NCBI GenBank assembly: GCA_025698895.1
Contig: JAILWO010000002.1
Coordinates: 62,001-126,000 of the forward strand
Source: Rhizobiaceae bacterium
Lineage (GTDB): Bacteria; Pseudomonadota; Alphaproteobacteria; Rhizobiales; Rhizobiaceae
Length of the DNA: 64,000 bases
Direction: 5' to 3'
Positions 5,265 to 64,000 of the stretch are shown one piece after another (within the stretch, counting starts at the first letter, position 1; every line of letters starts with the position of its first letter). Made by a program: the position numbers and the translations under genes. The notes under the pieces are model-generated. The model was not told the origin of the DNA. It did no database searches and saw nothing but the letters and a program-made list of their open reading frames with translations.

Positions 5265-6680
5265 CTACGCGTGCGGGGCCGTCGCCCGTGCATGCGTGGC
5301 TACATAGTTTTTCACCATTTTTACGTCCGAGGGAAGGGCGGCGAAGTCTTCGGCCCGTTCCATCAGCTTGCCGAGCCTTTCGGGCATGGCCGGCATCGCG
5401 CCGCAGGCCGCTTCGACCGCCTCGGGGAATTTCGACGGATGGGCGGTCGACAGCACCACCATCGGTGCCTCTGCATCGACCTGCCTGCGCGCGACATGCA
5501 CCGCGACCGCCGTATGCGGATCTATGAGCAGACCGCCCGTGGAGTCCCGGACCGAACGGATCGTGGCCGCCGCCTCGTCCATGGAGGCTCGCCCGGCGGC
5601 GAAATCCTTCCGGATCTCGTTTATCGTGGCGCCGTCGACCTCGAAAGAACCGGATTGAGCCAGTCCCGCCATTGCCGCCCTAACCGATGCGGCGTCGCGT
5701 CCCGAAGCCTCGAACAGAAGCCGCTCGAAATTGGAGGAAACCTGGATGTCCATCGAGGGCGAGGTGGTGGCGATCACGCCGCGCGTTTCGTAGCGGCCGG
5801 TTTCCAGCGTGCGGGCCAGGATATCGTTGTCGTTGGTGGCGATCACCAGTCGGTCGACCGGCAGGCCCATGCACGCGGCCGCGCGACCCGCGAAGACGTC
5901 GCCGAAATTGCCGGTCGGCACGGTGAAGCGCATGGATCGGTCGGGCGCGCCGAGCGAAAGCGCCGAAGAGAAGTAATAGACGATCTGGGCCATGATGCGC
6001 GCCCAGTTGATCGAGTTCACGCCCGACAGGCCGACCTGGTCGCGGAAAGCGTGATCGTTGAACATGGCCTTGATGATTGCCTGGCAGGCATCGAAATCCC
6101 CCTCAATGGCCAGCGCGTGGACGTTTCCGGCGCCCGACGTGGTCATCTGGCGTTGCTGGACGGGCGAGACCCGGCCTTTGGGGAACAGTATGAACAGATC
6201 GGCGCGCTCGCTGCCGGCAAAGGCGTCTATCGCCGCCCCGCCGGTGTCGCCGGAGGTCGCCCCGATGATCGTCGCGCGCTCGCCCCGTTCGGCCAGGACA
6301 TGATCCATGAGCCGCGCGAGCAACTGCATGGCGACGTCCTTGAAGGCCAGGGTCGGCCCGTGAAACAGTTCCAGCATGAACTCGTTCGGTCCGGTCTGGA
6401 CGATCGGGCAGACCGCCTCGTGGCTGAAGGTAGAGTAGGCTTCGCGCACGATACGCTCGAAATCCGCCTGGCCGATTTCGCCTTCGACGAATGGCGTAAG
6501 CACCCGGATCGCGAGATCGGCATATGGCATTCCCCGCATCGACTGAATCTCGGACTTGGAGAAGTTCGGCCATGTCTCGGGCAGATAAAGCCCCCCGTCG
6601 CGTGCCAGGCCGGTCAGCATGGCGTCGCGGAAGCCGAGCGCCGGCGCGTTGCCGCGCGTGCTGATATAGGTTGTGGTCAT
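5265..6680 (-). CDS. thrC: threonine synthase
   Basis: A 471-residue PLP enzyme that converts O-phospho-L-homoserine to L-threonine, the last step of threonine synthesis. The start MTTTYISTRG and the GPTLAFKDVAMQ segment with PLP lysine K114 match the long bacterial/fungal type of threonine synthase (about 460-470 residues). Further marks are ATSGDTGGAA and FPKGRVSPVQQRQM. It is first in a minus-strand operon with the M16 peptidase 26 bp downstream. Confidence 0.98.
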   Translation of the reverse strand: MTTTYISTRGNAPALGFRDAMLTGLARDGGLYLPETWPNFSKSEIQSMRGMPYADLAIRVLTPFVEGEIGQADFERIVREAYSTFSHEAVCPIVQTGPNEFMLELFHGPTLAFKDVAMQLLARLMDHVLAERGERATIIGATSGDTGGAAIDAFAGSERADLFILFPKGRVSPVQQRQMTTSGAGNVHALAIEGDFDACQAIIKAMFNDHAFRDQVGLSGVNSINWARIMAQIVYYFSSALSLGAPDRSMRFTVPTGNFGDVFAGRAAACMGLPVDRLVIATNDNDILARTLETGRYETRGVIATTSPSMDIQVSSNFERLLFEASGRDAASVRAAMAGLAQSGSFEVDGATINEIRKDFAAGRASMDEAAATIRSVRDSTGGLLIDPHTAVAVHVARRQVDAEAPMVVLSTAHPSKFPEAVEAACGAMPAMPERLGKLMERAEDFAALPSDVKMVKNYVATHARATAPHA

Positions 6681-6804
6681 GGTCGTTCCTGAAGATGGAT
6701 GCGCAGTCGGCGGGCGCTCATGCGAGAAAAATGCGGTTGCCCAGTCGCGTTCGTCGAACGGCGTTGTTATAGAACGGCCGTTTCACGACGGGAAAGTGCC
6801 GTTC

Positions 6805-7398
6805 ATGAAGTTTTATGCGTCAGGTTTTCGATCTTCCCTCCGGGCGGCGGCCCTCCTCGCTCTCACGGTTGTGGGGGGATGTCAGTCCGGTGGCGGGGTG
6901 GGAAGCGCGTTAGGCCTTGGCGGCGGAGAATCCAGCGGTGCCGAAGCGGCGGACCGGATCTCGGCGATGGAGGTCCGCGGCTATTGCCCGCGTGTTCAGC
7001 TCCCCGGTACCCAGGCCGTGCTCAACCGGTACGAGCGCAATGGCGACGGCGATCCCGAGAAACTGCAGCAGCAGATTTCCGTCAGCGACGTGACGCGATC
7101 CTGCAGCTTCGCCGGCGGCCAGATCGGCATCACCGTCGCCCTGGCCGGCCGCATCGTCAGGGGACCGGCCGCGCAGGGCGCGGCGGCGGCATCCGTGCCG
7201 ATCAAGATCGAGGTCATCAACACCTCGGGCGAGGTCCTCTATTCGCGGATCCACCAGCACCAGGTCGACCTGTCCGGCGCCGGTGCGACCCAGTTCGTCT
7301 TCACCGATCCGGCGATCGTCATTCCCCAGCTCACCGAAGCCAATGTCCGCATCTTCGCGGGCCTGGACGTTCCGCCGCCGAAGGAACTGCCCCTGTAG
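6805..7398 (+). CDS. conserved hypothetical lipoprotein
   Basis: A 197-residue protein. It begins MKFYASGFRSSL, a hydrophobic segment and then VVGGC, a lipobox-like cleavage site (Cys near 26), followed by a Gly/Ser-rich linker; it is therefore probably an exported lipoprotein. The mature part is mostly beta-strand-like and has two further Cys (VRGYCPRVQ, TRSCSF). The ATG at 6805 was chosen because it sits directly before the signal peptide; an in-frame ATG at 6673 would add 44 residues that spoil the signal and overlap thrC. Function not recognised. Confidence 0.75.
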   Translation: MKFYASGFRSSLRAAALLALTVVGGCQSGGGVGSALGLGGGESSGAEAADRISAMEVRGYCPRVQLPGTQAVLNRYERNGDGDPEKLQQQISVSDVTRSCSFAGGQIGITVALAGRIVRGPAAQGAAAASVPIKIEVINTSGEVLYSRIHQHQVDLSGAGATQFVFTDPAIVIPQLTEANVRIFAGLDVPPPKELPL

Positions 7399-7440
7399 CG
7401 CGCCGCGCGAACAAAATGCTCCAGCCGGCCGTCGGCAGGC

Positions 7441-9367
<1,927 letters not shown>

Positions 9368-45595: not shown

Positions 45596-45672
45596 GCGCC
45601 CGTAGCTCAGCTGGATAGAGCACCAGACTACGAATCTGGGGGTCAGGAGTTCGAATCTCTTCGGGCGCGCCA
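45596..45672 (+). tRNA. tRNA-Arg (anticodon ACG)
   Basis: The acceptor halves GCGCCCG (45596-45602) and CGGGCGC (45662-45668) pair exactly, with discriminator G and encoded CCA at 45669-45672. The D-arm AGCTCAGCTGGATAGAGC, anticodon loop CTACGAA (anticodon ACG) and T-loop GTTCGAATC are regular. The accessory arsenic region begins directly 3' of it. Confidence 0.97.
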
Positions 45673-46337: not shown

Positions 46338-47228
46338 ATGGACGGGGCGATCCATCGAAGGCGGGAAGGTTTGACCCGCCGTGAATTCACGTCGGGAGTG
46401 GCTGCGACGGCGCTGGCGGCCTTTTCTCCCGCGGCGAGCGGCGCGCAGGAGGATGCCTTCCGGTTCGGCCTGACCCCCGTCTTCCTGACCAGCGACCTGG
46501 AGCTCCTCGGTCACCTCCGCGCCTACCTTACCGCCCGGGTCGGCGGCCCGGTCGAGCTCGTGACGCGGCGCACCTATCAGGAGATCACTGCCCTGCTCGT
46601 TTCGGGCCAGGTCCACTCGGCCTGGATATGCGGCTATCCCTACGTCCAGTTCCGCGACCGCCTCGATCTCGTCGCGACCCCGTCTTGGCACGGCAAGCCG
46701 CTCTACCAGTCCTACCTGATCGCGGCGGCCGACCGGAGGGCCGAAGGCTGGGAGAACCTGCGCGGCGACATCCACGCCTTCTCCGACCCCGACTCCAATT
46801 CCGGCTATCTCGTGACACGCACGCTGCTCGCCGAGAACCGGATGATGCCGGACCAGTTCTTCTCCCGCCACTTCTTCACCTACGGCCACCGCAACGTGGT
46901 CCGGGCCGTCGCCTCGCGATTGGCGCAGTCGGGCAGCGTGGACGGCTACGTCTGGGAGGTGATGAAGGAGACGGAGCCTGATCTCGTCGCCCAGACGCGG
47001 ATCGTCAGGCGCTCGGAGTGGCTCGGCTTTCCTCCGGTCGCGGCACCAAGATCGCTGAGCGGGGACCCGAGGGTCGCCCGTTTCAAGGATGCCCTCGTCT
47101 CTATGGCGGAGCATCCGGATGGACGAAGCGTCCTCGGCCTCCTGAGGCTGGACGGCTTCGTTCCGACCGAGCCTTCGCTGTTCGACGCGATCGCGGCGAA
47201 GGTCGAGACCGTGAGGCGGTTCGGATGA
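46338..47228 (+). CDS. aioX: periplasmic arsenite-binding protein AioX
   Basis: A 296-residue PhnD/TctC-like substrate-binding protein. The start carries a Tat-type signal (LTRREFTSGVAATALAAF). The mature part has the family's EITALLVSGQVHSAWICGYPY, with the single cysteine of the whole protein (Cys98), DSNSGYLVTRTLLAE and the SGSVDGYVWE segment. AioX binds arsenite and passes the signal to AioS; a Cys of AioX was shown to matter in Agrobacterium tumefaciens (Cys108 there, as recalled), and this lone Cys is the obvious counterpart. It overlaps aioS by 4 bp (ATGA). Confidence 0.95.
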   Translation: MDGAIHRRREGLTRREFTSGVAATALAAFSPAASGAQEDAFRFGLTPVFLTSDLELLGHLRAYLTARVGGPVELVTRRTYQEITALLVSGQVHSAWICGYPYVQFRDRLDLVATPSWHGKPLYQSYLIAAADRRAEGWENLRGDIHAFSDPDSNSGYLVTRTLLAENRMMPDQFFSRHFFTYGHRNVVRAVASRLAQSGSVDGYVWEVMKETEPDLVAQTRIVRRSEWLGFPPVAAPRSLSGDPRVARFKDALVSMAEHPDGRSVLGLLRLDGFVPTEPSLFDAIAAKVETVRRFG

Positions 47229-48671
47229 AGCTGGGGCACCGGATATGGTCGATGCCAATTTCGTACCGGGCGCCGGTGATCGTGGCGCTGCTGATGGTCG
47301 CCGTCAGCGCGGCGATTTCGGAGCGGGTGCTCGACCGCCTGTCTCGGACCCAGGAACGTTTCCTCGACGGCCTGGCGGAAACGTATCTGGACGGCCTCTC
47401 CTCCGCCGTCATTCCAGCAGTGCTGCGCGGAGACGTGTGGGAAGTGTTCGACGCGCTCGACCGCTCCGCAACGTCATACGGTGCGCTCGCCCCGCTCGAG
47501 ACTGTCGTGACCGGCGCGGACGGACGGGTGCTTGCGGCTAGCGATCCGGGCAGAATATCGGCCTACTCCGAACTCCCGGCCGCATACGCCGACCGCTATG
47601 GCCCGGGCATGGTCACCATCGACGAAGCTTCCGAGTCCGGCTTCGCGCGCCGCGAGCTGGTCTATCAGGGGCTGCCGATCGGGACCATCCACGCCGCCTT
47701 CGACGTGTCCCACCTGTTCGCCGAACGCCGCGAAATCCTGCTCACGCTGCTGGTCACCAACGGCGTCCTGGCGGCGCTGTTCTCGCTGGGAGGCTTCCTG
47801 CTCGTGCGGCGGATGACCGGGCCTATGCGCGTCCTCGAAAGCCACATGCGGGCGGCCGCGAGCGGCGCAGCCGAGCCGATCTCGCCCGCCGAGTTCCCGT
47901 CCCGCGACCGGGAGGTCGCCAGCCTCTTTCGCGGCTACAACGCGCTCGTCCACGCGGAGCGGGAGCGGGCAGACTTGGCGATGCGGCTCGCGGAAGAAGA
48001 AAAGGTGGCAAGCCTCGGACGGCTGGCCTCCGGCATGGCGCACGAGATCAACAACCCGCTGGGCGGCCTGTTCAACGCCATCGACACGCTGAAGAAGCAC
48101 GGTACCACGCCCGGCGTGCGCGACACCTCGATCAGCCTGATCGAGCGCGGCCTGGCGGGCATCCGGGACGTGGTCGAGGCGGCGCTGGCGACGTATCGCC
48201 CCGAGCGCTCCAGGCGGCCCCTTGGCCTGCACGACTTCGAAGACGTGCGGCTCCTCCTCAAGCCGGAGCTGCGGCGCAAGCGCCAAAAGCTCGACTGGGA
48301 CGTCGCCTGGACGGATACCGGACCGACGCTCCCCGACGGCGGCCCGGTGCGGCAGGCGCTGCTCAACCTGCTTTTGAACGCCAGCGCCGTCACGCCGGAA
48401 GGTGGCACGCTCGCCTTCAGGGCAGGCCATACCGACCGCCTCGTCACGATCGAGATAGAGGATCAGGGACCCGGAATGCCGCGCGAAGTCTTGGGCATCC
48501 TGACCGAGGCCGATCCCGGCCCGGCGGTGCGCGCCGGCCACGGCCTCGGACTCTGGATGGTGCGCCGCACGATTGACGAACTCGGCGGAACCGTGAAGAT
48601 CGCGCAAAAGAATGACGGCGGGACGATGGTGACGTTGATCCTGCCTCTCGCGCGGGAGGGCGCCAGCTCCC

Positions 48672-48682
<11 letters not shown>
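47225..48682 (+). CDS. aioS: arsenite-responsive sensor histidine kinase AioS
   Basis: A 485-residue membrane kinase. Transmembrane helices at about 17-35 and 178-200 frame a periplasmic sensor domain of about 140 residues. A HAMP region follows, then the phosphoacceptor motif GMAHEINNPLGG with His273, and the ATPase domain (LNLLLNASAV, EDQGPGMP, GHGLGLWMV). AioS probably receives the AioX-arsenite signal and phosphorylates AioR. The ATG at 47225 overlaps the aioX stop and the end overlaps aioR by 11 bp. Confidence 0.95.
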
Positions 48683-50015
<1,333 letters not shown>

Positions 50016-50031
50016 ACCTTCGGCGGCGCAG

Positions 50032-50053
50032 CATGTCCGGATTTCCGAACATG
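50032..50053. promoter_or_regulatory. predicted AioR upstream activator site B
   Basis: A near-perfect 22-bp palindrome: CATGTCCGGA on the left and TCCGAACATG on the right around a central TT, with one mismatched pair. It is centred about 63 bp upstream of the -24 element, the distance usual for NtrC-class activators. Confidence 0.7.
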
Positions 50054-50104
50054 TCGATGATCCGGCGGCGTCTGCGATCCTAGAAAACCGCCGTTCGCGC
50101 TGTC

Positions 50105-50120
50105 TGGCACGAGGCTTGCT
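50105..50120 (+). promoter_or_regulatory. sigma-54 (-24/-12) promoter of aioBA
   Basis: TGGCAC-GAGGC-TTGCT matches the sigma-54 consensus TGGCAC-N5-TTGCW exactly, including the GG and GC pairs. Transcription should start near 50131, about 30 bp before the aioB start. The upstream activator is AioR. Confidence 0.93.
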
Positions 50121-50161
50121 GATCTTCCCGCGATGTCATCGCACCATCATGGGAGGAAAGC

Positions 50162-50686
50162 ATGTCAAGATGCGAACGACTGGTCGACGTCGGCCGCCGC
50201 CAGTTCCTGAGGGGAAGCGCCTTCGCCGCTGCCGGGGCGGCAACGGCGGTCGCGCTTCCGGCAGCACCCGCCAAGGCCCAGGCCGCCATGGCCCGGGTGG
50301 AATATCCCTCGAACCGGCTCGCCAACGTCGCCGACCTCGCGGTCAACGAGCCCTTGGATGTCGCCTATCCCGACGAGAACGCGCCGGGCGTGCTCCTGAA
50401 GCTCGGCAAGGCGGTCGAGGGCGGCGCAGGCCCTGACGGCGATATCGTTGGCTTCTCCACGATCTGCCCGCACAAGGGCTTTCCGCTCATGTATAGCGCC
50501 GATGACCGTACGCTGAACTGCCCCGGACACTATTCCCGCTTCGACTGCGAGGCCGGAGGGCAGCAGATCTGGGGCCAGGCGACCCAGAACCTTCCGCAAT
50601 ACGCGCTGCGCGTCGACGAGAACGGCGACATCTACGCCGAAGGCGTGGACGAGCTGCTCTACGGCCGGCTTTCCAACGTGCTCTGA
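50162..50686 (+). CDS. aioB: arsenite oxidase small (Rieske) subunit AioB
   Basis: A 174-residue Rieske [2Fe-2S] protein. The Tat signal is GRRQFLRGSAFAAAGAATAV, so the folded AioBA complex is exported together. The cluster ligands are C102-P-H104 and C120-PG-H123. The two cysteines that form the disulfide near the cluster in Alcaligenes faecalis are F107 and G122 here, the same as the disulfide-free Rhizobium NT-26 type. AioB takes electrons from the molybdenum subunit and passes them to cytochrome c. It is 11 bp before aioA. Confidence 0.97.
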   Translation: MSRCERLVDVGRRQFLRGSAFAAAGAATAVALPAAPAKAQAAMARVEYPSNRLANVADLAVNEPLDVAYPDENAPGVLLKLGKAVEGGAGPDGDIVGFSTICPHKGFPLMYSADDRTLNCPGHYSRFDCEAGGQQIWGQATQNLPQYALRVDENGDIYAEGVDELLYGRLSNVL

Positions 50687-50697
50687 GGGAGGAAGAA

Positions 50698-53376
50698 ATG
50701 GCTTACAAGAGACAGATTGACCGCCTTCCGATCATCCCGGCCGACGCCAAGCGCCACAACGTCGTCTGCCACTACTGCATCGTCGGCTGCGGCTATCACG
50801 CCTACAGCTGGCCCGTGAACAAGCAGGGCGGGACGGAGCCGTCGGCCAATGCCTTCGGAGTGAACCTCGCCGAGCAGCAGCCCGCCGAGACGGAGGCGTG
50901 GTACTCGCCGTCGATGTACAACATCGTCAAGCAGGACGGGAAGGACGTCCACATCGTGATCAAGCCCGACAAGGACTGCGTGGTGAACTCAGGCCTTGGC
51001 TCGATCCGCGGCGCGCGCATCGCCGAGATGAGCTATTCTCGGGCGCGACAGACCCAACAGCAGCGCCTGACCGATCCGCTGGTGTGGCGCTATGGCCAGT
51101 TGCAGCCGACGAGCTGGGATGACGCGCTCGATCTCGTGGCTCGGGTCACCGCCCGGATAGTCGCGGAGAAGGGCGAGGACGCGCTCTTCGTCTCCGCTTT
51201 TGACCATGGCGGCGCGGGTGGTGGCTACGAAAACACCTGGGCCACCGGAAAGCTCTATTTCGGGGCGATGAAGGTCAAGAACATCCGAATCCACAACCGC
51301 CCGGCCTACAACTCCGAGGTCCACGCCACCCGCGACATGGGCGTGGGCGAGCTCAACAACTGCTACGAGGACGCCGAGCTTGCCGACACGATCATGGTCG
51401 TCGGCGCGAACCCGCTCGAGACCCAGACCAACTACTTCCTCAACCACTGGATCCCGAACCTGCGCGGGACCTCGCTCGAAAAGAAGCAGCAGGAGCTCTC
51501 CGGCGAACCGCACGCGCCCGCACGCGTCATCATCGTCGATCCGCGGCGGACTGTGACCGTTGCGGCCTGCGAGGCGGAGTCTGGCAAGGAGAATGTGCTG
51601 CACCTGCAGATCAAGTCCGGCACCGACCTCGCGCTCTTCAACGCTCTCTTCACCGAGATCTCGGAGAAGGGCTGGGTAGACCAGGCCTTCATCGACGCGA
51701 GCACCACGAGCGAGGCAGGCGCGGGCGACCTGAACGATCCGGCTCATCCGGGACTGCTCAGCAGCTTCGCCGCCGCGCGCGAGGCCAACCGCATGTCGGT
51801 CGAGGAGGCGGCGGAGATCACGGGCCTTTCGCCGGACGACATCCGCAAGGCTGCCAGCTGGATCGCCGAGCCCAAGGAGGGAGCGGCGCGCCGCCGCACC
51901 ATGTTCGCTTACGAGAAGGGCCTGATCTGGGGAAACGACAACTACCGCACCAACGGCGCGCTGGTGAACATCGCGCTTGCGACCGGTAATGTCGGGCGTC
52001 CCGGCGGCGGAGTGGTGCGCCTCGGCGGCCACCAGGAAGGCTATTCGCGCCCTGGCGACGCCCATGTCGGGCGTCCCGCGGCCTACGTCGACAAGCTCCT
52101 GATCGAGGGCCGGGGCGGCGTGCATCACATCTGGGGCTGCGACCACTACAAGACCACGCTGAACGCCGCCGAGTTCAAGCGCGTCTACAAGCAGCGCACC
52201 GATAAGGTGAAGGACGCTATCAACGCGGTGCCCTACGGCGATCGCGAGGCCATGGTCGACGCTATCGTCGGGGCGATAAACGACGGCGGTCTCTTCGCCG
52301 TCGATGTCGACATCGTTCCGACGAAGATCGGCGAGGCCTGCCATGTGATCCTGCCCGCGGCGACATCGGGCGAGATGAACCTCACCTCGATGAACGGCGA
52401 GCGGCGCATGCGGCTCACCGAACGCTACATGGACCCGCCGGGACAGGCGATGCCTGACTGCCTGATCGCCGCAAGGATCGCCAACCATCTCCAGCGCGTC
52501 TTCAACGAGATGGGAAAACCGGACATCGCCGCCAACTTCGACGGGTTCGATTGGCAGACGGAAGAAGACGCATTCATGGACGGCTACCATCAGAACGAGA
52601 AGGGCGGCGAGTACGTCACCTATGCCCGCCTACGCGTGATGGGGACCAACGGCTTCCAGGAGCCGGCGGTCGGCATAGAGGGCGGTCCGACGGCCGAAGG
52701 CAGCTCGCAGGGCGAGACGACGACGGGTCAACAGCCCGGCATGATCGTGCAAGGCCCCGCCGTCGAGGGGGCGCGCGGCAAGGAACCGGTCCAGCAGGCT
52801 GAACCCGGCTCGGCAGCGGCGCCGGTTGCCGATTCCGGATCCGAACGCATCATCGGCACCAAGCGCCTCTACGCGGACGGAAAATTCAACACGGAGGACG
52901 GCAAGGCCCGTTTCCTGCAATCGCCTTGGCGTGGACTGCAGGCGCCCGGGAAGGAAGAGCAGCAGGCCAGCTACCAATTCCTCATCAACAACGGCCGGGC
53001 CAACCACGTCTGGCAGTCTGCGTATCTCGACGTGGAGAACGACCTGGTGATGGACCGCTGGCCGTACCCGTTCATCGAGATGCATCCCGACGACATGGCC
53101 AAGGTCGGCGTGAAGGAGGGCGACCTTGTGGAAGTCTACAACGATGCGGGATCGACGCAGGCAATGGTCTATCCGACCCCGTCAGCCCGGCCTGGCGAGA
53201 CCTTCATGCTGTTCGCCTATCCGACGGGCGTACAGGGCAACGTGGTGAATGCCGGGACGAACGAGCTGATCATCCCGAACTACAAGCAGACCTGGGGTAA
53301 CATCCGCAAGATCGCGGACGCGCCCGAGGGCGTGCGGCACCTGTCGTTCAAGTCGCAGGAATATAGCGCCGTCTGA
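50698..53376 (+). CDS. aioA: arsenite oxidase large (molybdopterin) subunit AioA
   Basis: An 892-residue DMSO-reductase-family subunit that oxidises arsenite to arsenate. The [3Fe-4S] ligands are C24-x2-C27-x3-C31 (CHYCIVGC), followed by molybdopterin-binding segments such as GANPLETQTNYF and VDPRRTVTVAACEAE. It has no signal peptide and rides on the AioB Tat signal. It is about 50 residues longer than the characterised enzymes (about 825-845, as recalled); the extra length is a Gly/Gln/Glu/Pro-rich stretch at about 662-716, between MGTNGFQEPAVGIE and GTKRLYADGKF. All else looks intact. Confidence 0.97.
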   Translation: MAYKRQIDRLPIIPADAKRHNVVCHYCIVGCGYHAYSWPVNKQGGTEPSANAFGVNLAEQQPAETEAWYSPSMYNIVKQDGKDVHIVIKPDKDCVVNSGLGSIRGARIAEMSYSRARQTQQQRLTDPLVWRYGQLQPTSWDDALDLVARVTARIVAEKGEDALFVSAFDHGGAGGGYENTWATGKLYFGAMKVKNIRIHNRPAYNSEVHATRDMGVGELNNCYEDAELADTIMVVGANPLETQTNYFLNHWIPNLRGTSLEKKQQELSGEPHAPARVIIVDPRRTVTVAACEAESGKENVLHLQIKSGTDLALFNALFTEISEKGWVDQAFIDASTTSEAGAGDLNDPAHPGLLSSFAAAREANRMSVEEAAEITGLSPDDIRKAASWIAEPKEGAARRRTMFAYEKGLIWGNDNYRTNGALVNIALATGNVGRPGGGVVRLGGHQEGYSRPGDAHVGRPAAYVDKLLIEGRGGVHHIWGCDHYKTTLNAAEFKRVYKQRTDKVKDAINAVPYGDREAMVDAIVGAINDGGLFAVDVDIVPTKIGEACHVILPAATSGEMNLTSMNGERRMRLTERYMDPPGQAMPDCLIAARIANHLQRVFNEMGKPDIAANFDGFDWQTEEDAFMDGYHQNEKGGEYVTYARLRVMGTNGFQEPAVGIEGGPTAEGSSQGETTTGQQPGMIVQGPAVEGARGKEPVQQAEPGSAAAPVADSGSERIIGTKRLYADGKFNTEDGKARFLQSPWRGLQAPGKEEQQASYQFLINNGRANHVWQSAYLDVENDLVMDRWPYPFIEMHPDDMAKVGVKEGDLVEVYNDAGSTQAMVYPTPSARPGETFMLFAYPTGVQGNVVNAGTNELIIPNYKQTWGNIRKIADAPEGVRHLSFKSQEYSAV

Positions 53377-61986: not shown

Positions 61987-62660
61987 AATTCGTAGGCGAG
62001 GCACGGCACTCCCGGCGACTTTGCGCCGGACGGGAAAGAGTGTGCAGGATCTACCATTGGGCGGCCTCGGGAGGGATGTCCGAGAAGGTTCCAGCTCACG
62101 ACGATGCCCACCGTAACCTGAATGTCCGCCCTAGAAGATCCGTAGCCAGGAGCTGACCGTCTCCCTCCTGGCCCGTTTCAGGCAAAGTTTGCCCGTCAGC
62201 TTCGCGCCCCCTTGTCGGTCGTTCGCCAGCTATCCGGCTGTTACCAAAAGCTGTCACCCAATAAAGAAGAGAACAGCGCGGCGTGTTCTTAGTGGCAACG
62301 CGATCTTCCGATCGGCGCACTGCGTGCCTCGGGTGCAGCCGTCCGATGACGACCGCGTGACTAGCTACACCACGTCGACTAACGTCATCCCGACGATGCG
62401 ACTCATGAGGATATGCTGGGGGCATCTCGAACCTCTGTCAGACCGATGACGCATAACTATTTCTGCCGGTCGAGGGATCGTCGCGCCCTCGTTGCCGCCG
62501 CATGAGTAGATCCGAAGGCCCAAGCCCAAAACGAACTCTCCCGATTAAAAGTGCTTTCCTTTCATCATGTTATTGCACAGTTGGAAGATTTTTGATGGCT
62601 TGAGTTGAAAAATCTTCCAGCAAGGTGCTAACCTGAAAGAAAACAGGAAAGGGACTCCGC
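61987..62660. other. gene-free right flank of the ars cluster
   Basis: No gene is supported in these 674 bp. It contains the 28-bp repeat copy at 62197-62224 that matches 45887-45914, and just before the AAA-ATPase gene a perfect 12-bp inverted repeat at 62582-62593 and 62608-62619. A short AT-rich stretch at 62540-62640 differs from the GC-rich surroundings and probably holds the promoter of the next gene. Confidence 0.7.
62582..62619. promoter_or_regulatory. perfect inverted repeat upstream of ietA
   Basis: TGGAAGATTTTT (62582-62593) and AAAAATCTTCCA (62608-62619) are exact complements with 14 bp between. It could be an operator for the system or an RNA hairpin in the leader; the gene starts 42 bp further right. 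Confidence 0.6.
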
Positions 62661-63782
62661 TTGTCGTCGGCCGAAGGAAAAATCGAGAAGGACCTGGTTC
62701 AGCTGGCGCGCGTCGCGCTGTCGGGCCGTACCCAGGACGTAACGGCGCTGCTGCACCGGTTTGCGAAGAGCTACCGTGATAACGCGCCGGTGGTAGCGAC
62801 CGCCATAGCGGCCCTGCTGCGCGAAGCGCCGACGCGCTCTTCGCCGCTGCGGCGGCAGACGGAGGCCGTGCTGCCGGTGGATGTTGACACGCGCTTCCAT
62901 TTGCTGCGGATCGAGGAGCACCCGCTGTTTGAACATGAGCCGGTCTACGCGCCGGAGGTGAAGGCCACGCTGGAGACGATCGTCGCCGAGCGCCGGGGGA
63001 GTGCGGCGCTCCTCGAAGCGGGACTTGAGCCCAGCCGAACGGTCCTTTTCACGGGGGAGCCGGGCGTCGGGAAGACGCTCGCCGCGCGCTGGCTTGCGCG
63101 GGAACTGAACCGCCCGCTGCTGATTCTCGACCTTGCCGCAGTGATGAGCAGCTATCTCGGCCGAACCGGAACCAACCTGCGCCATGTTCTCGATTATGCG
63201 AAGTCACTGGATTGCGTTCTGCTGCTGGACGAGCTGGACGCGATAGCCAAGCGCCGCGACGACCGCGGCGAGATCGGGGAACTGAAGCGGCTCGTCACCG
63301 TCCTCCTGCAACAGATCGACGACTGGCCGCCGAAGAGCCTTCTCATCGCGGCGACGAACCATGCCGATCTTCTGGACCCGGCGCTCTGGCGGCGGTTCGA
63401 CGTCGAGCTGGAATTTCCCATGCCGGGCCGCGACGCCATCGAGGCCCATCTGCGGGCGGTGCTCGGCCCCGTCAGCGAAGGGGCGGAGGCGTGGTCGCGC
63501 GTCCTCGCGGTCGCGCTGGAGGGGCGATCCTTCAGCGATATCGACCGCGACGTGAAGGCCGTGCGCCGGAAAGCGGCTCTTGCGGGCGAGGCCGTCGATG
63601 GGCATCTGCCCGCGCTTTTGCAGGGCTATGCGGGCACCAAGGCCGCGCGCATAGCCCTCGCCGCGGAGCTTGTCGGCAGCGGTCTTCTCTCGCAGCGCGC
63701 CGCCCATGAACTGACGGGCGTTGCCCGCGAGACAATCAGGGCGCGGACGGTCCGCAGACCGAAGGAGCGTGGCCATGGCTAA
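62661..63782 (+). CDS. ietA: AAA+ ATPase of an IetAS-type defence / toxin-antitoxin pair
   Basis: A 373-residue AAA+ protein. The N-terminal part (1-100) is helical and not recognised; Walker A is GEPGVGKT at 132-139, Walker B VLLLDELDAIA at 186-196, followed by IAATNHADLLDPALWRRFD with the sensor and arginine-finger residues. The C-terminus has a small helix-turn-helix-like tail (SQRAAHELTGVARETIRART). Start is TTG at 62661 with GGAAAGGGA upstream. Its end overlaps the protease gene by 8 bp (ATGGCTAA). This pair matches ietAS (known as a plasmid-stability module in Agrobacterium and as an anti-phage system). Confidence 0.85.
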   Translation: MSSAEGKIEKDLVQLARVALSGRTQDVTALLHRFAKSYRDNAPVVATAIAALLREAPTRSSPLRRQTEAVLPVDVDTRFHLLRIEEHPLFEHEPVYAPEVKATLETIVAERRGSAALLEAGLEPSRTVLFTGEPGVGKTLAARWLARELNRPLLILDLAAVMSSYLGRTGTNLRHVLDYAKSLDCVLLLDELDAIAKRRDDRGEIGELKRLVTVLLQQIDDWPPKSLLIAATNHADLLDPALWRRFDVELEFPMPGRDAIEAHLRAVLGPVSEGAEAWSRVLAVALEGRSFSDIDRDVKAVRRKAALAGEAVDGHLPALLQGYAGTKAARIALAAELVGSGLLSQRAAHELTGVARETIRARTVRRPKERGHG

Positions 63783-64000
63783 GACCAATTTTCTGCTCGG
63801 CAAGGGGGAGCGCCTGACCGAGGACGTTGTCGTCCGGTCCGGCGGCGGCCCCAAGGCGCAGCCCTATACGTTCCAGCAGGCGCGCGCGCGTCTCGCGCCG
63901 ATGCTGGACCGGACGGTCAGTCAGATCAGGGCTCTGCCGCCGGAAGCCTGCCCGCAGGGCAAGGCCGTGGCCGCCGTGACCCTCAATCCCGAATTCATCG
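63775..64000 (+). CDS. ietS: subtilisin-like serine protease of the IetAS pair (3' truncated by window)
   Basis: Only the first 75 codons are in the window. It begins MAKTNFLLGKGERLTEDVVV and continues GGGPKAQPYTFQQARARLAP, the N-terminal region found in proteins partnered with this ATPase; the S8 catalytic triad lies further right and is not seen. The 8-bp overlap with the ATPase gene supports the pairing. The S8 assignment is based on this N-terminus and on the neighbour. Confidence 0.7.
   Translation, partial: MAKTNFLLGKGERLTEDVVVRSGGGPKAQPYTFQQARARLAPMLDRTVSQIRALPPEACPQGKAVAAVTLNPEFI

Follow-up and report, generated by a model that had tools for sequence, protein, structure and literature searches.

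We have analysed a window of 64,000 bases (the whole stretch of DNA to which the positions below refer; contig C2, 62001–126000) from a 4.76-Mb Rhizobiaceae genome in seven contigs, together with a 20-kb stretch (contig 120001–140000) for the 3' side beyond the window. The features that concern us are the following.

45596–45672, forward strand: tRNA-Arg(ACG), left edge of a putative island (ARAGORN).
46338–53376, forward strand: genes for a phosphonate-binding-type protein, a histidine kinase, a sigma-54 response regulator, a Rieske protein and a molybdopterin oxidoreductase (Pfam), which we take to serve arsenite sensing and oxidation and name aio.
62582–62619, no strand: perfect 12-bp inverted repeat with a 14-nt centre (sequence).
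62582–62588, forward strand: left half-site TGGAAGA of the predicted ietA operator (comparison of upstream regions).
62605–62610, forward strand: possible -35 hexamer TTGAAA (placement relative to the right half-site shared in a 21-row set).
62613–62619, forward strand: right half-site TCTTCCA, within the -35/-10 spacer (comparison, promoter placement).
62629–62634, forward strand: possible -10 hexamer TAACCT (sequence and placement; the spacer here is 18 nt).
62661–63782, forward strand: ietA, AAA+ ATPase with a C-terminal helix-turn-helix, Ser344–Arg360 (Pfam, PADLOC, alignments, AlphaFold2).
63775–64000, forward strand: first 226 bases of ietS, an S8 protease gene that ends at contig position 127997.

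The ietA gene opens with TTG and encodes 373 amino acids that match Pfam AAA (PF00004, E=1.6e-31) and have the IetA model as their best PADLOC match (E=3.1e-78). It is a classical AAA+ protein with Walker A and B motifs, in which G132, G135, G137, K138, D190 and E191 are invariant in a 60-row alignment. Among solved structures its best sequence matches, at the head of the best 60 of 267, are Cdc48/p97 ATPases, with a best E of 9.5e-73, and in a Foldseek search with the whole IetA model the best 50 of 1870 matches are AAA+ proteins (p97, FtsH, AFG3L2, PAN, proteasome, Vps4 and others). We considered the p97/Cdc48 likeness as a sign of ubiquitin handling and rejected it as a general AAA+ likeness.

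The second gene, ietS, is complete past the window edge (contig 125775–127997, 740 amino acids) and matches both Pfam Peptidase_S8 (E=7.5e-17) and the PADLOC IetS model (E=7.7e-46). A sequence-only reading of the window had proposed an IetAS-type pair of AAA+ ATPase and subtilisin-like protease overlapping by 8 bp, and had advised looking right of 64000 for an Asp-His-Ser triad. The Pfam and PADLOC matches bear out the pair, ietS does start at 63775, 8 bp inside the end of ietA at 63782, and the extended sequence holds a complete S8 protease with the triad Asp281-His312-Ser498. The three columns are kept as Asp, His and Ser in 105/106, 106/106 and 106/106 of the matched loci covering all three, a count from which neither redundancy among the loci nor further copies of the window gene were removed; the single deviation is Glu in place of Asp.

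The scores of both proteins lie below the NCBIfam anti-phage equivalog cut-offs (IteA 222.6 of 510 bits, IteS 114.6 of 900 bits), so that, given the PADLOC matches, the pair appears to belong to a divergent branch of IetAS. From its sequence, we assign it to the IetAS kind and not demonstrably to the anti-phage equivalogs; our literature search found no phage test of this branch. The same genome carries a second IetA homologue (contig C5:93721–94674), some 61 kb from a sub-threshold Multi_ubiq match on that contig. Elsewhere, on an Agrobacterium plasmid (L062; loci are given by such numbers) and a Komagataeibacter plasmid (L063), IetAS adjoins caspase-family genes, at about 5600–9113.

The inverted repeat before ietA has perfect arms at 62582–62593 and 62608–62619. 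Its 12-bp perfection, as noticed in the sequence-only reading, is confirmed, the gap to the TTG start being 41 nt and not 42 as had been stated. The exact repeat occurs once in the window and in none of 100 shuffles, and TGGAAGA-N20-26-TCTTCCA is found at a single place in the 4.76-Mb genome. The conserved half-sites TGGA(A/C)(G/T)A and their reverse complement precede ietA in many homologues, which lends comparative support to the earlier suggestion that the repeat may be a regulatory site. We first noticed the motif on comparing the DNA 5' of genes for IetA relatives in 23 loci, and in 21 aligned rows the half-sites are separated by 22–24 bases.

A candidate reader of this site is found in IetA itself. 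Residues 344–360 of the window protein, C-terminal to the AAA+ domain, form a predicted helix-turn-helix, SQRAAHELTGVARETIR, and the AlphaFold2 model (the domain was also modelled alone) has helices at 327–339, 345–352 and 356–363, with block means of pLDDT of 87–92 across 321–360. The pattern of a DNA-binding domain in the antitoxin is thus present in alignment and model, while the Pfam and fold matches are not significant: Pfam gave only a sub-threshold HTH_psq match on the IetA C-terminus, and Foldseek with the 65-residue helix-turn-helix model returned nothing significant (best E 2.3), TrpR, DeoR and LCoR being among the non-significant matches listed. Such a C-terminus is not universal in the family, as 60 of 93 representatives pass a loose pattern and length filter.

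For a systematic comparison, 153 loci were reduced to 93 representatives at 85% identity, of which 91 were scored for the motif from -160 to +20 of the ietA start (L102 and L110, with too little upstream DNA, were left out). The paired motif is present in 18/34 representatives whose recognition helix reads [ASV]R[DE]T versus 0/57 of the others. Two more, L060 and L072 (RDT helices), have it overlapping the ietA start; with these counted as having it, 14/34 matching-helix representatives are without the exact motif, and some of them show variants or other repeats. Since the motif had come to light in a subset of the loci, the 19 representatives fetched afterwards were counted apart, and 9/19 of these have it compared to 9/15 of those fetched before (-160 to +20 count). 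Shuffled upstream regions (mononucleotide, not dinucleotide, shuffles) gave one match in 9100, and the insides of ORFs none. Over the 153 loci (1.87 Mb, redundancy included), all selected for carrying ietA, the motif occurs 32 times, 31 of them at an ietA start; these are spread over 28 loci in 20 clusters, all with the [ASV]R[DE]T helix. The half-sites are 30 or 31 bp apart from centre to centre in 18/19 matches, about three DNA turns. Taken alone, the inverted repeat is significant (p≤0.05) in only 19/91 representatives.

Other types of recognition helix accompany other repeats. The distant IetA proteins with SPST helices (L162, L166, L168) have in common an ATTCGAT/ATCGAAT inverted repeat, significant in none of them alone, which from its sequence is a candidate second operator class, and SRPT/SHPT helices (L064, L087, L140) go with TGGTAA-like repeats; among these six loci only the L087 repeat is significant alone (p=0.016). 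Within the main helix group, half-site base 5 tends to be A where helix position 357 is Glu and C where it is Asp (p=0.004; 0.009 if L021 is counted against), and Ala versus Ser at position 355 pairs with G versus T at base 6 in any half-site (0/9 vs 9/11, p=0.0003), all with L062 dropped and counted without phylogeny. L092, which combines Asp with an A half-site, is a clear exception, and the cluster of L021 gives a mixed picture. On a tree from which the helix-turn-helix was left out, the residue/base links fall on two to three independent pairs (supported branches) and are not significant. We regard the covariation as suggestive.

The placement of the repeat relative to the possible promoter is also of interest. 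The best of 66 promoter placements has the right half-site between -35 and -10 (5.1, versus a mean of 3.2 and s.d. of 0.76), with a best shared spacer of 17 across rows; a consensus promoter scan alone found no promoter. Lying within the spacer, the right half-site would be in a position suited to a repressor.

Past the end of ietS, on the opposite strand, an XRE-type gene and an M78 protease gene occupy contig 128001–128931. The M78 protein matches PF06114 and, weakly, a capP model (E=1.1e-8), and the XRE protein has an HTH_3 match under the Pfam cut-off. They are followed at contig 129027–130850, on the forward strand, by a Bub-type operon with a single-repeat Multi_ubiq gene, a DUF6791-ThiF (E2-E1) fusion and DUF6527 (PF14452, E=5e-16; PF20590, E=3.2e-52; PF00899, E=9.2e-11; PF20137, E=1.2e-23), the DUF6791 and DUF6527 genes being taken by us to belong to Bub. 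Two GATTGC-N6-GCAATC palindromes stand between the XRE and Multi_ubiq genes. As the CapH/CapP-like pair and the Bub operon lie beyond the window, they were invisible to the sequence-only reading. Their make-up resembles that of the Bub operons with CapH and CapP in the available text of PMC13373217, which combine Multi_ubiq, E1/E2 and DUF6527 with an adjoining XRE and M78 pair; there, CapW, or CapH together with CapP, is reported to accompany 219 of 544 such operons, and Bub operons are said to have had no phage protection demonstrated so far. Unlike those operons, the one described here adjoins IetAS, and the term IetA is absent from that main text. A scan of viral contigs with the E2-E1 protein found no relative.

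The neighbourhood of IetAS and Bub recurs. Where IetA shares at least 57% identity with the window protein, Bub lies within 6 kb in 6/12 clusters (85% clusters), in nine loci (the window, L015, L016, L017, L020, L021, L054, L055 and L056) and in three arrangements: downstream and co-directional behind the regulator pair, upstream and co-directional, or downstream and facing IetAS. It was not found in eight loci of this set (L018, L019, L077, L078, L092, L093, L094 and L095), whose upstream DNA extends over 1.4 kb in L092 and 5–8.6 kb in the others, and L091 is unplaced because its contig ends in the XRE gene. The Bub parts differ as well, from DUF6791-ThiF with DUF6527 in the window to Multi_ubiq fused to Prok-E2_E in L021 and a separate ThiF in L020 (JAB matches in the latter two are under the Pfam cut-off), and the Bub type changes at least four times on the IetA tree. 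Bub is also found in distant IetA clades, in Mycolicibacterium (L067) and Hymenobacter (L085), and on a Hymenobacter plasmid (L089:7812–14870) a hypothetical gene and an E2-E1-JAB fusion, the only Bub-like gene there, come after IetAS.

Seen over the whole family and from the genome side, the link is rare. Bub genes occur in 8/93 IetA clusters, a count in which many loci span only about 1.5 kb per side, and in 4/49 of those whose flanks reach 4 kb or more on each side; they lie near IetAS in 6/22 of the plasmid regions examined. From the Bub side the link finds no support on plasmids: none of the best 60 of 115 window-type E2-E1 records on plasmids is among 50 IetS-relative records. In 397 order-level genomes, IetA (E≤1e-45) is found in 46 and Multi_ubiq in 33, with both in eight (3.8 expected, p=0.026); in two of the eight they are within 10 kb (one being the window genome), in five on different contigs and in one 1.9 Mb apart. 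The estimate of how often Bub would be near by chance takes no account of clustering in defence islands or of uneven flanks, and we do not use it as proof. Given this rarity, a specific functional coupling of IetAS and Bub is possible, not established.

All these genes appear to share a putative island. The last 46 nt of the tRNA-Arg (contig 107627–107672) are repeated beyond the window at contig 131312–131357 with 42/46 identities, bracketing 23,685 bases from the tRNA end to the end of the right copy (C2:107673–131357). Besides the aio genes, this stretch holds, by Pfam, genes for a MoeA protein, a cytochrome c, an ArsC protein and a transporter of the sodium/bile-acid-symporter family, followed by IetAS and Bub. 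None of the 14 PF00589 matches (tyrosine integrase) of the genome falls inside it, and an empty site was not demonstrated, the right-flank protein being present in 0/25 relatives; the island is therefore only putative, perhaps decayed. The idea that the pair is defence cargo on one mobile element with the arsenic genes thus stands as regards the common putative island with its repeated tRNA end, and is weakened as regards mobility.

With a probability of about 0.7, we read the locus as a divergent IetAS toxin-antitoxin or defence pair in which IetA reads its own operator and represses its own operon. Comparison of sequences speaks for both protein families, the triad, the conserved predicted operator, the helix-turn-helix, the linked variation and the promoter-overlapping position; we infer that IetA binds DNA, that it acts as a repressor and that it inhibits IetS in the present branch, and likewise the trigger. 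IetS would be a subtilisin-type protease restrained by the AAA+ ATPase IetA, whose C-terminal helix-turn-helix would read both half-sites before ietA; bound there, IetA would lie over the -35/-10 spacer and repress transcription of the operon that encodes it. When IetA is lost or engaged, IetS would be freed and the promoter re-opened. The adjoining Bub operon is probably transcribed on its own, controlled by the CapH/CapP-like pair, and would be carried with IetAS as defence or stability cargo. Findings on the known pair of Salmonella genomic island 1 speak against this reading: the accessible text of PMC9927553 reports that sgiAT promoter activity was apparently increased rather than decreased by the presence of SGI1 in two backgrounds, and that of PMC5006074 that no post-segregational killing was seen with sgiAT under its native promoter.

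Binding by IetA is a prediction, and the repeat might instead be bound by another regulator, as inverted repeats are by many, or act as an RNA hairpin. We consider this quite improbable: the motif travels with ietA (31/32 matches, although in loci chosen for ietA), its letters change with the IetA helix, and the CapH-like gene has different palindromes of its own, in two copies. The hairpin would in addition need a right half-site within the transcript, whereas it lies 5' of the predicted -10. A separate matter is what the pair is for. It could serve only island maintenance, as an addiction module giving no phage protection, and the missed NCBIfam anti-phage cut-offs point that way, as does a known pair of such a kind that promotes island maintenance (according to the accessible part of PMC5006074). 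Yet IetA and IetS both match PADLOC models, the neighbourhood is defence-like, and maintenance and defence roles are compatible, so we give the exclusively addictive role a real chance but somewhat less than an even one.

As to the Bub operon, it is fairly probable that IetAS and Bub are mere neighbours in a defence island, the pair being a stand-alone addiction or defence module and the link having no function. This would agree with the low share of IetA clusters with Bub, with its closeness in only two of the eight genomes that have both, and with other IetAS members adjoining caspase-family, CBASS or phage genes. It accounts less readily for the recurrence of Bub in half of the close clusters, in three arrangements and with differing E1/E2 parts, for the repeated changes of Bub type on the IetA tree and for the links in distant clades (L067, L085, L089). 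The bolder reading, by which IetAS and Bub would form one pathway in part of the family, with Bub tagging targets and IetA feeding tagged proteins to IetS in a bacterial equivalent of unfolding and degradation under the guidance of ubiquitin that would start once IetA has left its operator, seems to us a long shot. The repeated pairing nevertheless makes IetAS a candidate partner for that tagging system. If IetA does read its own operator, as we prefer to think, it would be an AAA+ antitoxin in which the control of the toxin is tied to transcription, which is directly testable, and the combinations of helix and half-site may form a natural specificity code.

Compared to IetAS of Agrobacterium pTiC58, the window pair has the same order of AAA+ ATPase and S8 protease and matches the PADLOC IetA and IetS models, but misses the NCBIfam IteA/IteS cut-offs; the branch described here has the C-terminal helix-turn-helix and the conserved predicted operator. 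A literature search of limited reach, in partly accessible sources, found no description of a self-regulating AAA-ATPase antitoxin of this sort, and any novelty holds only within the searchable literature. AAA+/S8 pairs that act as toxin-antitoxin systems are reported, in the available parts of the respective papers, from SGI1 (PMC5006074) and from mycoplasma (PMC8562856). SgiAT of Salmonella genomic island 1 (PMC5006074, PMC9927553) resembles the window pair in joining an AAA+ antitoxin to a subtilisin-type toxin on an integrative element; it differs in that its promoter was studied for SOS control, the accessible text describing no antitoxin-read operator. Mycoplasma TA132/133 (PMC8562856, accessible text) is likewise similar to the window pair, with an AAA-ATPase antitoxin and an S8 toxin in one operon.
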